Shown here: positions 40,580 through 50,502 of the stretch, one piece after another
Layout of the letters: every line of letters starts with the position of its first letter
How positions within the stretch are numbered: the first letter of the stretch is position 1
From: Caenorhabditis elegans
Lineage: Eukaryota; Nematoda; Chromadorea; Rhabditida; Rhabditidae
Direction: 5' to 3'
NCBI RefSeq assembly: GCF_000002985.6
Contig: NC_003284.9
Coordinates: forward strand, 7,440,001-7,504,000
DNA: 64,000 nt
The notes under the pieces: model-generated
The model's input: only the letters and a program-made list of their open reading frames with translations
What the model was told of the DNA's origin: nothing
Database searches by the model: none
Made by a program: the position numbers and the translations under genes

Positions 40580-41470
40580 TTGTCGAATTACAAACGTATT
40601 GTTATTTCCCAAATCATTTGTAAAAACTATCAATCCCATTCACTATCTCTTTCATAACATTTCCTGGTCTAGCATTCATGGTGCAAAGTTTTTCAATTTT
40701 GCTTTTTTACCTTATTTACCCTATTTACCACTTTTACCCTATTTTCACTTGTTCTCGTTCCCGTTGTCTCTATCAAAAATTCCCAACCTCTCTCACCGAA
40801 TCCCTGTCTACCAAACTTGAATGTTCCGGATGTATAGTATCATTGTAGGCCTAATTGATTGTATATTTTGATTATGATATGTCTCAAAGTTAAGCCATCC
40901 ACAGCTAGTCTTCTCGTCAGAGATTACTGTGGACATTAAAATTGTGATTCAAATTGTTCAACGGATATTGTTGTAATCTTATATATTTAAATACAGTCTA
41001 TGGACCGTTCGTTTTTTTACAAGTTTTGAACGAAGCGTTACAGAAAGAAGTAATCAAATTCCAGATCTGTAGAAACTAGCGAGTTAACAGGTAATCGGAA
41101 CTATGGTGTCTTGAACAATATTTGAAAGTATTCGAAATAGTGTACATATTTTGTGAAACTAAATACTATCAAACGATATCCTACTCAACTCTGAAATGTT
41201 CATACAGTGTATTAACACCTGCGCGACAACGCTTCACCTCTCTCATTTAAATGAATCCAAATGATTAGTCGCTGGAGATTATTAGGATATGCTACTAACG
41301 GAGCTTTTAAATAATGGCGGGTTCTCCCTACCCGCGTCACCATAGAAACCGAGCGGACTCGTGCCGGCTGGTGTTCTCCCTTCGTCCGCCTTCCGCGACT
41401 CAACTCATTTCCGTGTCTCCTCTAATATTTTCCAACGACCACATCTATATCTATTGCTTATCTCCAATAA
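40580..41470. other. mek-1 3' flank and promoter of the coiled-coil gene
   Basis: A possible mek-1 poly(A) signal ATTAAA is at 40935-40940. From about 41300 the DNA becomes GC-richer and contains the X-box at 41336-41349. No additional gene is seen. Confidence 0.55.
41336..41349. promoter_or_regulatory. X-box (RFX/DAF-19 site) upstream of the coiled-coil gene
   Basis: GTCACCATAGAAAC matches the worm X-box consensus RTHNYYWTRRNRAC at all 14 positions. It lies 122 bp before the ATG at 41471, within the range typical of DAF-19-regulated ciliary genes (roughly 60-250 bp). It is the only full match I noticed near a gene start in this window. Confidence 0.6.
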
Positions 41471-44400
41471 ATGTCGTTGGCAATTAAAGGTAGGTATTTT
41501 TATAGGTATTGTTTATTTGGTAGTTTAAGCAATTTCAGGAAAAGCGGCTCATATTGTTCCAAGACAAAGGCAGAGCCAAGGAAGTCACGGAAAAGCTGAT
41601 CATAGTTCAAGGAAGCAATCTGTGTTGGTTTTTCATTTCGAGGAAAAGGAGCTCCAGAAATAATTCATTAGACTTTTGCAGCGATTCCGCGTACCACAAT
41701 TCTAATGAGATTTCCAATCTTACTGACCAATACGCACAAAGCCTCCAACAACAAATACAACTTTTGCAGATTGAAAATGCATTTTTGTAAGTGAAGATGA
41801 AAAGGAAAAATATTATTTTGAGTTTCAGAAAAGAACAGCAAGTAAAAAGAGAAGAAAATGAACAAGAGAGAATAAGAAATATCGAAATGGAGGAGCAATA
41901 CAGAGCCGATAAGTTCCGGCAAGAGCAACAAGCTAAAGAGTTTGAAGATCTTCAACACAGAAGAGAATCGGTTTCTCAGATAAACCAGTCTAGGCGTGGG
42001 ACGACTACTCAAATTTTGGCCAGAGGAAATGAAGTTTAAATTTAAGCTTTAAAAAAAATCACATTAAAATTGTTCAGGTTTCAATAAATGGGGAAACTTG
42101 GTGCCAACTTCCACCTCACCACCCACCGATTCCAGCTATTATTAGCGATCGATCTCAGTATTCACAACGAATTGGGAGAGACAGGGTAAGTAGACTAATT
42201 ATTGGGTTCTGTTCAAAAACAAAATTGATAAAGTGCAAAAATAGGCGCTGAGGGTAATCTTCTGTTTGAAAAATAGTAGTATACATAATTGAGGTTTAGG
42301 TGAGTTAGTATAAATTTCGAATGAGTGTAACTTTGAAACTAAACACAACTAGTTTCAAAAACTATAACTACCAAATCGCAGACCTGTAATTTAACTTATT
42401 AGTTTAATCTCTATCAAAAAATTACTCCAACATTATTTTGACAAAAGATATTACTGTCTAAAACTTCTGAGTGAAATTTTGGCGGTTTGAACCATTTGAA
42501 CTTTTAAAGATATTAACTTATCAAACTTTTCCGACAGCACGGACAATGAGGCAAGGTTTAATTTCAAACTCTGCACACTGTTTTAAACGTGCATGTAGGG
42601 CTGAAACACCAAACTTCTGAATTGCTAAGTATAATTTTTCTTGTTTTCATTCCATGTTCCACATTTTTCTGAGGTTCGGAACAACCGGTGACAAGTTATT
42701 CAATCAATCCAAAGTATGGAATTCATTTAAGCAGTATTGAAAACACGTTTCCAACATTGGAAAAACAGGTTTTGGATTGTTTCAAATTTGAGAAAAGCAG
42801 GACGCCGGACGTCAAGCTCAAACCGGGGTGTCAGCTCGACCTACAGTCAAAATACGTTTCTCAAAAAAATTTTTAAAAATAAATTTAAATAAATTATGGT
42901 TTTGATCGTACTTGAGGCATATGTTTTTGAATTGAAAATTAGCATTCTGAACATTGTTGCAATACGTTAGCCCGAAATCTCCTTGAACCGAAATCTCCTT
43001 GGCTCAAATAAAACTGAAATCGAAAATAAAGTTTTGCATGTAAATACATTTTCAGAGTGCCTACGACTATTACCATCGAGATCGACGCGAATATAGTGTA
43101 CCCTGCTTTCCTCGTTCTCGCCAACCTAGTTCAATGAGGTATGTCATAGATTAATTTGTAGAAAGCATATGTTTCCGTGTTTAGAGAGCGTTCATTCGTT
43201 ATGAACCAGACCTTTGAACGCGAGGAGTCCATGATGCAAGATTTGGAAGATGCAATCGAAGTAAGTGTGAGAGAAAAACAACGCATGAATACAATCAACG
43301 TTTCAGAAGAACAGTCAACTTGAAAAAGATATTGTTGCCACAAGGGAAAGGGAATTGGATAATGAAAAAGTGATCAACTCATTGTCAACTAGGATAAAAC
43401 TTATTGAGATTGAGAAAAAAGAGGAAATTGGTATCTTGCACACCTTGATATTACAACGGGAGAATATAATTACCACATTATAGAATCGATGGTGAGCGAA
43501 AAGAAGAGTCTTCTTGAAGAGCTTTTGCACATGCAAAAAAGAATTGATGAGCTTGCACCAGCTTGCGCTGAGAAGGAACTGAAAATTGTGGCAAAGGACA
43601 ATGAGAAGCTTGATCTTTCGAAAAAGCTTCGACTTGCTAATAGTGATATTTCTCATCTCCAGGTAATTCAGCTTGTTTCATGAGTCCTATAACTGTAAAA
43701 GCAACAAATATGTTTTCAGACTTCAATGATGCATCTCAGAGATGAAGTGTCATCAAAAGACAATGAGTTAAAATCAATGAATGATGACATTCTCTACCTG
43801 AAGAGCCAGCTTTTGATAGTCGAAAGTGAATCAAGAGAATTGAAAGCGAAAGATTTGGAAAATCAGGTTTGTGTTTTTGAATGAATTCATAAAAATTAAA
43901 TAGAACTTGGCTGTATCAATTTTAGAATGACTATACCGATATTTTTCAACTAGTCACAAATATAAATATGAATTATTCATATTACTTTCTAACCATGTAT
44001 ACATGTTCAAATATTAAAAAATGTCATTTTTATGTGATGCCTAAGATATAATAAAAACTTAAGAAAAATGTATTCATTTTGCTTTTGTGATTGATTCTAT
44101 GTATGCGTTTGTATACCAACAACTCAATAATAAACTTTTTTGCAGATTTATTTGTTTTATAACCACTTCGATAATTTCATCATTTTCAGGAAAGGATTCA
44201 TGCATATATTCAACAAACAAGAGAATACGAACTCACACAAATCAACGATAAAAAGCTCATCGATAAAGTATGCGAATAAACCTCTAAAACAACTCACACG
44301 CGTAATCGTTTTTCAGGTGATTGAAGAGAACTCAAGTTTGATCAAAGAAAATGCGAAAGTATCAACTAAGCTCAGCCGCCTTGAAAGTGTTGATTATACG

Positions 44401-45038
44401 TATAAGCAAAGAGAGCTGAAGGAAGCTCAAAATAACAGCGATTTGGTATTGGAACTAAAAGCAGCTCTGCAACAAGAGAAGAGTTCTTCTCATGGAATGC
44501 TAAACAAAATTGAAATTATGAGGCAAAGGTGTGAAGACTTGGAAAAATCGGTAATCCTAAACTGTCGATATTAATTTCGAATTTTAAATTTATAGATTTT
44601 GGATCGTGATAAAAGTGAAGATGAGAACATTATGGAAAGAAGTCGAGTTGAAAAGGAGCTCAACGCACTTCATGCTCTTTCCAAATCTTTGTCATCGGAG
44701 AATAAAATTCTACGTGAAGAGAAATTAATCAATGAAGAAATTATTGATGAACTGAAAGGGAAAGTTAGTCTTATAATATGAAAGATTGAGAAAAATTTAA
44801 AATATCACTTAAGATTCGTGCATTGGAAATGAGCATCCGGTCAACGCAAGGTATCTATCAGGAGAAGGAACGACAATGTGCCGCCAAAATTCAAGAACTT
44901 GAAGATGACGCGTCAAAAAAGCATCAAAAGTATTTAGAGTTTGAAGAAATCTCAAAGACACTTCATCAAATCACCGCCTTGCTGCCTTCGAAAACATCCG
45001 GCATGACTCATATTTTGCCAAAAGATTGCTCAAATTAA
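41471..45038 (+). CDS. Unnamed long coiled-coil protein, candidate ciliary/centrosomal
   Basis: I do not recognise a named family. Fourteen exons in frame: 41471-41489, 41539-41623, 41682-41786, 41829-42033, 42078-42185, 43056-43138, 43185-43260, 43307-43430, 43484-43662, 43720-43866, 44190-44267, 44317-44550, 44596-44763, 44814-45038, giving 611 residues. A basic/polar N-terminus precedes a first coiled coil (about residues 50-120, NLTDQYAQSLQQQIQLLQIE). Then comes a non-helical linker with Pro, Tyr and Arg (about 140-210), and a long Glu/Lys/Leu heptad region from about 215 to 590. There are no membrane segments or enzyme motifs. The exact X-box upstream suggests expression in ciliated neurons. 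The exon 2 donor (GTTGGT at 41624) and the 53-bp intron at 43431-43483 are the least certain splices. Confidence 0.8.
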
Positions 45039-45180: not shown

Positions 45181-45186
45181 AATAAA
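45181..45186 (+). terminator. Poly(A) signal of the coiled-coil gene
   Basis: AATAAA 143 bases after the stop codon in a T-rich 3' UTR, the first canonical signal downstream. Confidence 0.6.
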
Positions 45187-46171: not shown

Positions 46172-48775
46172 ATGAAACGGGTGCTCCGTCGCTCGGCATC
46201 AAAACACGCGAGCACACTGTTTAAAATTATCTGTATTCTTGTATTATGCTCTTTTATTATTTACCTGAAGTCTGAAGACCATGATTTGCAAAAAGTAACT
46301 AGTTTTATCGGGTTGTCAAATGTAATTTTAAATTTGGTGCATTCAGAATACTGCTATTCACGCTCCACGGTCCAATTCGCGGGAAGATGAGGATGATATT
46401 TTAATACCGGTAATATATTTGAGAATTTATTTTTTCACTGTTTTGCTTAATTTAAAAACTAATGAAAATAATTTCCAGGCTGATAATAAAGATCAACAAT
46501 TTGTTGCAGCTGTACTTGTTTTTTGCGCAACCAGGCCCGATGCTCTTCGGAATCATTTATCACAAATTTTAGCGTGAGTTCCTCGTTCTCAAATTGAACA
46601 CATTTATTACGTTTTCTATTACAGCCAACGCCCTTCACACTTTCAATACCACATCATTGTTAGTCAAGATGGCAATAAGACCGCCGTCACACAAGTCGCA
46701 CAAAAGTTTGTCAAAGACTACAAAAACGTGTCACATATACAAGTAAGTTTCCATATTATATTACTCTCCACACCAGCTCATATGTTCTCAGCATGAGAAG
46801 ACGGAAATCAAAAAGCGGAACAACTACCCAGCCATCTCGGCACATTACAAATGGGCCTTGGACAAAGCCTTCAAAGGCTTCCGTTATGATCATGTCATTG
46901 TGACTGAAGGTAAGTGAGCTATAGCTGACAGCTATATCATTCTAATAGTAAGAAAACAACTCATGTTTTCAGACGACCTTGACATAGGTAACGATTTCTT
47001 TTCCTACTTCCGATGGGGAAAACAAGTTCTCAACTCTGATGACACTATTTGGTAGGTATTTGTCTGCAATGAAATTCAGATGTTAGTAATTTTAGGAATT
47101 CAGGTTTTCTACCATTAAAGATGCTTCACGTTTTAATTAAACTTTAATTTTAGAAAGAAATGCATGGGCAAATGCATTTAAAGATAACTCTTACATATGC
47201 AATCTTATTTTTTATTCGTAGATCACATATATCGTGGACAATACGATAACATAAAAAACCTCAAAGCTTAAAATAGAAAATGAAAAAAAAAGGAAATTTA
47301 CTTTCCGTATTAATTGCAAGTAATGAGATATAGTAAAAAGGGAAGCTACAGAAGTTGCACAAACGGATATGTATAAAAACTCGTGGTCACAATAATGCAA
47401 AGGAATTAAAATGTAAATAGAAAAATCACTTGCGTTTGTTCCTGATTAACTTATGCAAATTTTTCAAAGAACGGAATACCTTATCTATAAATTAACATTT
47501 TTAAATGTTGTTTTTTATTTCCCTCCCTCCCTTGGTTAACTTCTAAACGGGTTTCACAAATTTTAGTATAAATATCAGACGAATAATTAGAATAACTATC
47601 ATCATTTCAATGGGTTCTGTTTTTAGGTGTGTATCTGCGTGGAATGACAATGGAGGAGGACCACTTATAGATTCGACGCGAGGCGATTTAATTTGGAGGA
47701 CGGACTTCTTTCCGGGATTAGGATGGATGCTCACAAAAAAACTCTGGAACGAACTTTCGCCCGGATTTCCTGTTGCGTATTGGGATGACTGGATGCGAAA
47801 GCCGGAAGTGCGGAAGAGCAGGTCATGTATCCGTCCGGAAATCAGTAGAACGTCGCATAACATGAAGTTAGCTGGAAAAGGGTCTAGTGGGTAAGGATTG
47901 TTCTTATAACGACTCGTTTAAAAATGCCTAGTCTTTTTTTGTTGAAAACTGGTCAACTTTTCATCAACAAGTGATTATTTGTATATTCTAACATGACTAA
48001 AAACCAATTTTCTGTAAAAATGAAACATACGTGAAAGTGCATTGATAATTTTCAGAGGTATGTTCAAAGACTATCTCAGCAAAATTAGCGCATCCAGCGC
48101 AAACATTGACTTCTCTCTTCTCCCTGTCACCCTCGTCCAAAAATCAATCTACGACAAGCGCCTTATAGAACAAATTGAGGTAGGATTAAATTTCCATGAG
48201 AAATTTGATAATTGTAGCTTTGTTCAGAATGCACGACCCATAGACCTGCAGAACACTACTGGGATGGAGAAAACCTACAATTACAAGTGAGTATTAGATT
48301 TATTGCATATAATTCAATTTTTGTAGAATTGTGTACAAGAACATTCGAGACTGGCATAGGCTGGCCGCCCATTTCAAATTGATGACAGACATTCGAGTAG
48401 GTTAACATTTGGTATATTGAATTTAAGTATCACATTAAGGGAGGAATGCAGCGAACAGCATACTATGGAGTTGTCACTTTGATGTTCCAGAATTGCAGAG
48501 TGTTTTTGGTACCTGAATCAACGTACCGAAATCCATCACAACTTACTAGTTACGTCTACGATTCAGAATGGGACAAACAAAACCGATTTATTGAATTTGA
48601 AGCATATTACTGCAAAACTAAAAAGTAATAGTCTAAACTGATAAAATACAAGTTTTTGTAATTTTTCAGATATGCTGGAAAATGCGACCCACACAGTCCC
48701 GAGATGATTGCCTTTTTCAAAAAGAAAGGATGGAAGAAACGATTGGATGATTGGGGCGAGATGCTAGTTGTTTAG
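46172..48775 (+). CDS. gly-12: GLY-12, alpha-1,3-mannosyl-glycoprotein beta-1,2-GlcNAc transferase I (GnT I)
   Basis: Golgi type II enzyme that adds the first GlcNAc to Man5 N-glycans, opening hybrid and complex branching. Twelve exons: 46172-46294, 46347-46409, 46479-46573, 46625-46742, 46792-46909, 46973-47051, 47627-47890, 48056-48179, 48228-48286, 48327-48396, 48440-48624, 48670-48775, for 467 residues. A signal anchor lies at about 17-31 (LFKIICILVLCSFII), then a stem, then the GT13 domain: IIVSQDGNKTAVTQVAQ, the metal/UDP motif EDD at 172-174, CVSAWNDNG, RTDFFPGLGWML and YWDDWMR. Each has a direct counterpart in human MGAT1. The exon 11 acceptor (ATTAAG) is weak, but the frame supports it. 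C. elegans has three GnT I genes; the neighbourhood with uggt-1 identifies this one as gly-12. Confidence 0.95.
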
Positions 48776-48917: not shown

Positions 48918-50502
48918 ATGAATAATTTCTTAATTTTTCATCTAATATTGTTGTCTTTATTTACTTTCACTTACGGATATACTAACTGTATTAACTCGTT
49001 TAATGGGCGGTCTTATGGGACAGTTCAATGTGCAAATAACTATTGCAAAAAGTACACTGGAAGTAGTGGAATTGTTAGTAATTTTGAAAATTTTCAAAGA
49101 ACCTGAAAATTCATAAGATTCATGGCCTAAAAATATCTCAAAAACCAAATACATATTAGACTTTTCACATATTTTACAAAATGGGTATTTCAAATTTTAA
49201 GTAAATGGGGTTAAATAGAGATGAAACCTCTAATTTTCCCTCATATCAAAATCCAATTTCTATTTATTTAACTATTTATTTATTCAAAATGTGCAAACTC
49301 CGACCAAAATCATAAACTTTGCTAATGTTTTTGTCTTACAGCAGCTGGAATACAACGTTTCTTGAATTATGATATTCTATTGCCTATTATGGTTACTTGA
49401 GATTCTAGCAAGAATGAGCTTAATTTTTCAATATTTTAAATTGCCATAAAATAGGTTTTTTTGAAAGTTTTCTAGAGGCTCATTCGAAAATCCTTTTTTT
49501 GACTACATTTTGAGTCTAAACGTTTAAGATACCCAAAACCATTAGTTATTCTTTAAAGGAGATTTTTTGCTTAAAAAAAAGGTGAAACATTTTTGAAAAA
49601 TTTTATCATTAGATTCAGTTTTTTGTCCAACTAGTGTATCAATGAAAATCCACGAAAAGTAATAATTTTTTCAGGTACAACTGTCCTGTGACGATACGGG
49701 TGATTGTAAGCGTTCTTTCGAAAGAACATTTGTCGGACCTGTTCAGGTTAGTTTTACATAGAATTTATTACAGGGTGGACCATAATTATGCGCACTCGTT
49801 TCTAGCCTATTTACTGTCTTTTTCGCGACCGCCACGTCATGTCTCAAATTTTTTATTTTATTTTTGTTGCCCTGGTCTTCCGTTTGACATAAAATTTTGT
49901 ATGCTTATCAACTAGATGCACTCTCCACAACCACGACAATCTGAAGCACCCCTCTGCCAAAGTGGTCTTTTGGCGGAGAACCTGTACCACCGTCCAAAAT
50001 TCCAAAAATGTTTGTTGTTTAGCATTAGTATAAAGTTAAAGTAACTGAGAACCATTTCCGTATGTTTTGAATCAGAAAAAAACGGTTATGCGCCAACACT
50101 GATGGATTTCAAGATTCTTTGAGATCTTCGATACTTCCACCTGAAGCGTCTAGCTCTTGAAACTGTGTCAGAGATTTCGAAAATGGTATCTTATTCAGTT
50201 TTTCTCGGAGAACAAAACCTATATGATTATTTGTTTAATGTGTTTTTCGTTTTGGTTTTATGACGCTTCAAAGTAGTGCGCATAATTATGGTCCACCCTG
50301 TACAATTTTTATCTAAAATTTTCAGTTATATGCGTGCATGTCAGATCAATCAACTCGTCAAACTTGCTGCTGTAACTATGATTTTTGCAACGGTTCTTCA
50401 AATAACAATAGTATTTATTTAATTATTATGCTGGCTGTCATTATAATTTATTCATTCCAATGCTCTCTTCAGTTTCCAACTTTTGGGATTCTTTCCGTTT
50501 AG
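48918..50502 (+). CDS. Ly6/three-finger-domain membrane protein
   Basis: Small secreted or surface protein of unknown function. Three exons in frame: 48918-49073, 49675-49746, 50326-50502, for 134 residues. Signal peptide at 1-20 (MNNFLIFHLILLSLFTFTYG), then a roughly 80-residue ectodomain with ten cysteines ending TCCCNYDFCN, the closing signature of Ly6/uPAR three-finger folds. A hydrophobic stretch IYLIIMLAVIIIYSF and a short tail follow, so it is single-pass or processed for a GPI anchor. Intron 2 contains a 530-bp transposon-like element. The ATG is only 142 bp from the gly-12 stop on the same strand, and the last 62 bases overlap the coding end of the sugar transporter on the other strand. 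Exon 1's donor (GTTAGT) could be shifted by a few codons. Confidence 0.75.
49771..50300. mobile_element. 530-bp MITE with 26-bp perfect terminal repeats, TA target
   Basis: The ends are exact inverted copies beginning CAGGGTGGACCATAATTATG, extending to 26 bp, each flanked by TA (49769-49770 and 50301-50302). TA duplication and CAG-type ends place it in the Tc1/mariner superfamily, non-autonomous. Internal frames such as 49688-49915 are element and intron sequence. Confidence 0.85.

Follow-up and report, generated by a model that had tools for sequence, protein, structure and literature searches.

The window analysed here, a stretch of 64,000 nucleotides, corresponds to Caenorhabditis elegans X:7440001-7504000, the X chromosome being contig 6 of the genome. 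When the primers published for K08A8.1 (PMC5734877), F48E3.2 (PMC3691140) and F48E3.3 (PMC3206904) were compared with the window, exact matches were found for all six (6/6). The position of F48E3.3 given in PMC3206904 (X:7500939-7495639) converts to 60939-55639 of the window, and a glucosyltransferase gene occupies this interval. A gene for a coiled-coil protein sits between the primer positions of K08A8.1 and F48E3.2, and its clone name should be K08A8.x or F48E3.x.

When Pfam models were applied to 10 neighbouring ORFs, four scored above the cut-off (GNT-I, sugar transporter, glucosyltransferase 24 and protein kinase). Nothing was found by Pfam for the other six of the 10, which include one protease-like ORF and two that we read as sox-2 and coh-1. 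The GNT-I gene lies at 46-48.8 kb of the window and a membrane protein gene at 61.7-62.6 kb. We take the GNT-I gene to be gly-12 (F48E3.1) and the protease-like neighbour to be F48E3.4; these names, like those of the neighbours sox-2, coh-1 and acr-22, are tentative. The codon-usage scan to the right of 45 kb was too insensitive, as it missed the GNT-I exons at 46-48.8 kb. The deacetylase gene F48E3.8 (PMC3396651) appears to lie to the right of the window, where an exon-like stretch was seen (L027:4775-5197). It is a by-eye reading only, because the Pfam polysaccharide deacetylase model gave 0 matches across the whole C. elegans genome.

The coding region of the coiled-coil gene was placed at 41471..45038 on the forward strand (X:7481471-7485038) and consists of 14 exons in a splice model built from the sequence alone. 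Exons 1 to 7 are at 41471-41489, 41539-41623, 41682-41786, 41829-42033, 42078-42185, 43056-43138 and 43185-43260, and exons 8 to 14 are at 43307-43430, 43484-43662, 43720-43866, 44190-44267, 44317-44550, 44596-44763 and 44814-45038. Together they splice to 1836 nt (611 aa and a stop codon, ending at 45038), in agreement with the 611-residue protein of the sequence-only reading. All 13 introns of this predicted model are of the GT...AG type, some with weak donors (e.g. GTTGGT of intron 2). A likely polyadenylation signal, AATAAA, was found by eye at 45181..45186 on the same strand, 143 bp past the stop codon. Trans-splicing just before the ATG was considered and rejected, as no acceptor was seen by eye in the leader, and an operon with the upstream kinase gene was rejected in view of the gap of about 0.9 kb.

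Four parts can be distinguished in the protein. A basic head (residues 1-45; pI 10.2) is followed by a short predicted N-terminal coil (residues ~46-118), a basic linker (residues 126-205; pI 9.9, 15% Pro+Gly) and a long acidic predicted coil (residues ~200-589; pI 5.2, with 1% Pro+Gly for 206-590). On a COILS-type scale, a coil was predicted in 71% of the residues at >=1.3 and in 27% at >=1.5, which bears out the earlier description of a coiled-coil protein. The long coil (206-590) scored above 297 of 300 composition shuffles. In the case of the short coil (46-125), the score exceeded that of only 208 of the 300 shuffles (92/300 reached it), so that it does not go beyond what composition gives. 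When exon 12 alone was modelled from its single sequence, one helix was predicted (residues 2-77 of 78; mean pLDDT 93.9).

It had also been stated that the protein fits no named family, and this was upheld within the reach of the Pfam and PDB searches: no Pfam match above the cut-off was obtained for the whole protein or for four pieces of it, and no clear PDB match was found. With the whole protein and E <= 1, HSBP1 was the only Pfam match (14.6 bits vs a cut-off of 28.6), and another 10 matches, of many kinds and all below the cut-off, came from the four pieces. In PDB, the whole protein had two matches (E-values of 0.76 and 0.82), neither of them ciliary. The similarities to HSBP1, ATG16, tropomyosin, the CENP-F zipper and the crescentin rod are weak and of the heptad type (E-values from 0.001 to 0.03); at 14.5-19.2 bits against cut-offs of 28.6-100, the protein is not a member of these families. 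A six-frame exon search of the whole genome for paralogues, which distant kinship would escape, returned only the coiled-coil gene itself, with 10 matches inside it at E <= 0.001. A prokaryote genome collection was also scanned for a nematode relative, and none of the 18 pattern matches was confirmed.

Upstream of the gene, the 14-mer GTCACCATAGAAAC at 41336..41349 on the forward strand is a candidate DAF-19/RFX site (X-box), on the basis of sequence match and genome-wide class counts. DAF-19 is an RFX factor. As had been proposed, the site fits GTHNYYATRRNAAC, the loose X-box consensus, at 14/14 positions, and the ATG at 41471 follows the end of the box (41349) at a distance of 122 bp. GTCACCATAGAAAC has no other match in the window even when two mismatches are allowed; at the same looseness, at least one match was found in 31 of 100 shuffles. 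The loose consensus is fitted by two more sites in the window, at 47900 (-) and 59591 (+), giving three observed vs 0.5 expected. The first of these, GTCGTTATAAGAAC (47900-47913, reverse strand), falls where a GNT-I exon ends and probably reflects chance. When the tighter form GTNNCCATRGNAAC was used, only the 41336 site was found in the window, with an expectation of 0.032 per window and 7.5e-5 per 150 bp (both strands).

A consensus X-box some 50-250 bp before the ATG was taken as the mark of a DAF-19 target, and the 41336-41349 site is placed in this way. A preferred region of -50 to -200 bp is given in PMC1794439, and the X-box search of PMC551537 was confined to -60 to -160; the box is inside both ranges. 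Known distances include -93 for xbx-1 and -78 for dylt-2 (PMC3112216). The X-box is overlapped on the reverse strand by GACGC (41334..41338), the only GACGC/GCGTC in 40901-41700. This is the core of an FKH-like motif that was reported under FKH-8 ChIP peaks (PMC10393296), and its overlap with the X-box is possibly due to chance. A literature search for the 14-mer GTCACCATAGAAAC found no mention of it.

X-box classes were then counted over the C. elegans genome (100,286,401 bases in 7 contigs), with palindromic sites counted on both strands. The loose consensus GTHNYYATRRNAAC had 938 matches (460+478) vs 1116 (562+554) for the reversed control. Because the loose consensus does not occur more often than its control, the fit at 14/14 positions is weak evidence. 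In the case of the stricter GTHNCCATRGNAAC, a pattern written post hoc with the 41336-41349 site already known, an excess was observed (128 matches, 64+64, vs 45, 20+25, for the reversed control). The narrowest class, GTHACCATAGNAAC, showed no excess (10 genome matches vs 24 for the control). The case illustrates that a lone match to the X-box consensus says little, while the stricter form and the position add much.

The membership of this class is informative all the same. Among the nine other GTHACCATAGNAAC sites, one precedes IFT52/osm-6 (three Pfam IFT52 models and the PDB entry 'Osm-6-like protein') and one precedes a kinase gene on contig 1 at 9.36 Mb. The PDB matches of this kinase are mostly cyclin-dependent kinases among the 60 listed of 342, and from its map place we assume it to be dyf-5. 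Table 1 of PMC1794439 lists both osm-6 and dyf-5 (MAK kinase) among the X-box genes with expression in ciliated neurons. No ciliary gene was recognised at five of the nine sites (L030, L032, L036, L037 and L038; Pfam was applied to all but L037). At L033:4994-5350 (contig 3, ~4.987 Mb), GTCACCATAGCAAC stands 70 bp upstream of the start codon of a protein rich in Lys and Glu. Its later exons resemble WD repeats by eye, and it is perhaps the WDR60 dynein-2 chain. At L034:3934-4994 (contig 5, ~10.30 Mb, reverse strand), GTTACCATAGGAAC is upstream of an exon read as TOG-repeat crescerin/CHE-12. Neither was counted as ciliary, as the WDR60 reading had no confirmation from Pfam or PDB and the crescerin/che-12 reading had no Pfam or PDB match.

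In PMC9020716 (2022), SPD-5-directed TurboID was used to label the neighbours of SPD-5 in ciliated neurons, and the label was at the ciliary base. According to the same report, the centrosome that C. elegans keeps at this site lacks both centrioles and SPD-2. The uncharacterised F48E3.9 was an SPD-5 proximity interactor in both the indirect and the direct TurboID (PMC9020716). Direct TurboID gave 55 proteins, most of them deemed contaminants by the authors, and again included RSA-2, PCMD-1 and the uncharacterised F53G12.4, F48E3.9 and ZK809.5 (PMC9020716).

From its position and fit, the coiled-coil gene is very probably F48E3.9, a K08A8.x name being possible. Among the genes seen in a partial annotation of the strip, it alone has the look of an intracellular coiled-coil protein. 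A late number such as.9 would suit a gene that was missing from the first annotation and added later. The coiled-coil gene is thus probably already on a published SPD-5 proximity list. A literature search on F48E3.9 found no functional study, and no K08 or F48 gene is named in the main text of PMC1794439, whose full list of 93 genes is outside that text.

Taking promoter and proximity data together, we consider it likely that this X-linked gene, most likely F48E3.9, is driven by RFX/DAF-19 and encodes a coiled-coil protein of the acentriolar pericentriolar material at the base of the cilium. DAF-19 would bind the proximal X-box and turn the gene on in sensory neurons that build a cilium. The product would be an elongated rod whose head and linker are basic and which probably self-associates through its long coil. 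At the base of the cilium, such a rod may belong to the SPD-5-built acentriolar pericentriolar material or serve as a tether to it, with rootletin (CHE-10), PCMD-1 and RSA-2 nearby. The ciliary or basal-body role offered by the sequence-only reading is retained as the best reading and is partly supported: it gains independent support from the labelling of F48E3.9 around SPD-5 by two methods if the identity holds, but the name is inferred and the loose consensus shows no excess. That reading listed IFT, transition-zone and basal-body components; if the gene is F48E3.9, the data point to pericentriolar material at the base of the cilium more than to IFT or the transition zone.

The gene resembles osm-6, dyf-5, xbx-1 and other X-box genes in having a near-palindromic box of 14 bp that belongs to the same strict class and lies some 120 bp ahead of the ATG. 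It differs from them in that it encodes a coiled-coil protein without a recognised family and is a candidate DAF-19 target only. Proteins reported near SPD-5 at the ciliary base are PCMD-1, RSA-2, CHE-10/rootletin, CCEP-135, NOCA-2 and FAMH-161 (PMC9020716). If it is F48E3.9, our gene is listed together with them, having been labelled by both methods, and its predicted long coiled coil is like that of CCEP-135 as reported in PMC9020716. In contrast to these proteins, it has no similar C. elegans locus at E <= 0.001 in the six-frame exon search.

The X-box could be a chance match and the gene that of an ordinary cytoskeletal or trafficking coiled coil with no special link to the cilium. We regard this as rather unlikely. 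The failure of the loose consensus to exceed its reversed control speaks for it, as does the number of strict matches, about a third of which (45/128) would be chance matches if the control is fair; moreover, coiled coils occur in many proteins, and the weak Pfam matches are a mixed set. However, the site falls in a narrow interval upstream of an ATG. C. elegans has about 20,000 genes, and 150-bp promoters would make up 3% of 100 Mb. With about 45 chance matches per 100 Mb, one or two would by our estimate be expected in promoters. It is still more doubtful that the 14-mer is a piece of a coding or transcribed leader and not a promoter element, and we give this very little weight. An open frame of 58 codons (41311-41487) does span the box, but it stops just before the first splice donor, is out of frame with the main protein and lies in a C+G-rich patch of the kind in which open frames readily occur. 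The box is, besides, at a distance known for X-boxes.

Since the X-box evidence does not depend on the gene name, the protein could also be X-box-driven and ciliary but off the SPD-5 centrosome, i.e. an IFT-associated, transition-zone or rootlet-associated coiled coil, with F48E3.9 being another gene. The strip does hold further unnamed genes, a small secreted-type gene at ~48.9-50.5 kb and the membrane protein gene at 61.7-62.6 kb. These look secreted or membrane-bound, however, and would be poor SPD-5 neighbours, and no similarity to IFT coiled coils was found above the Pfam cut-off. This alternative is accordingly judged improbable.

If the gene is both X-box-driven and SPD-5-adjacent, as in the pericentriolar reading that we prefer, it becomes a direct candidate for holding the acentriolar centrosome at the ciliary base. 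It would then add to the X-box-driven ciliary coiled-coil proteins one without a detectable family. There is a small chance that it goes further: as a tether induced by RFX and perhaps specific to nematodes, it would keep the SPD-5 material in place at the ciliary base once the centriole and SPD-2 have been lost, a task that falls to centriolar proteins in dividing cells.

The small gene to the right of the GNT-I gene was read by eye at ~48918-50460 on the forward strand. With its signal-like start, Cys-rich middle and hydrophobic tail, the product resembles a membrane-anchored protein of the Ly-6 type. The end of the gene overlaps with the 3' primer site of the oppositely directed F48E3.2. 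Within an apparent intron of the small gene, a 534-bp stretch was observed (49769-50302) whose terminal inverted repeats are 38 nt long and 89% complementary; it has TA at both ends, like a small Tc/mariner-type element.
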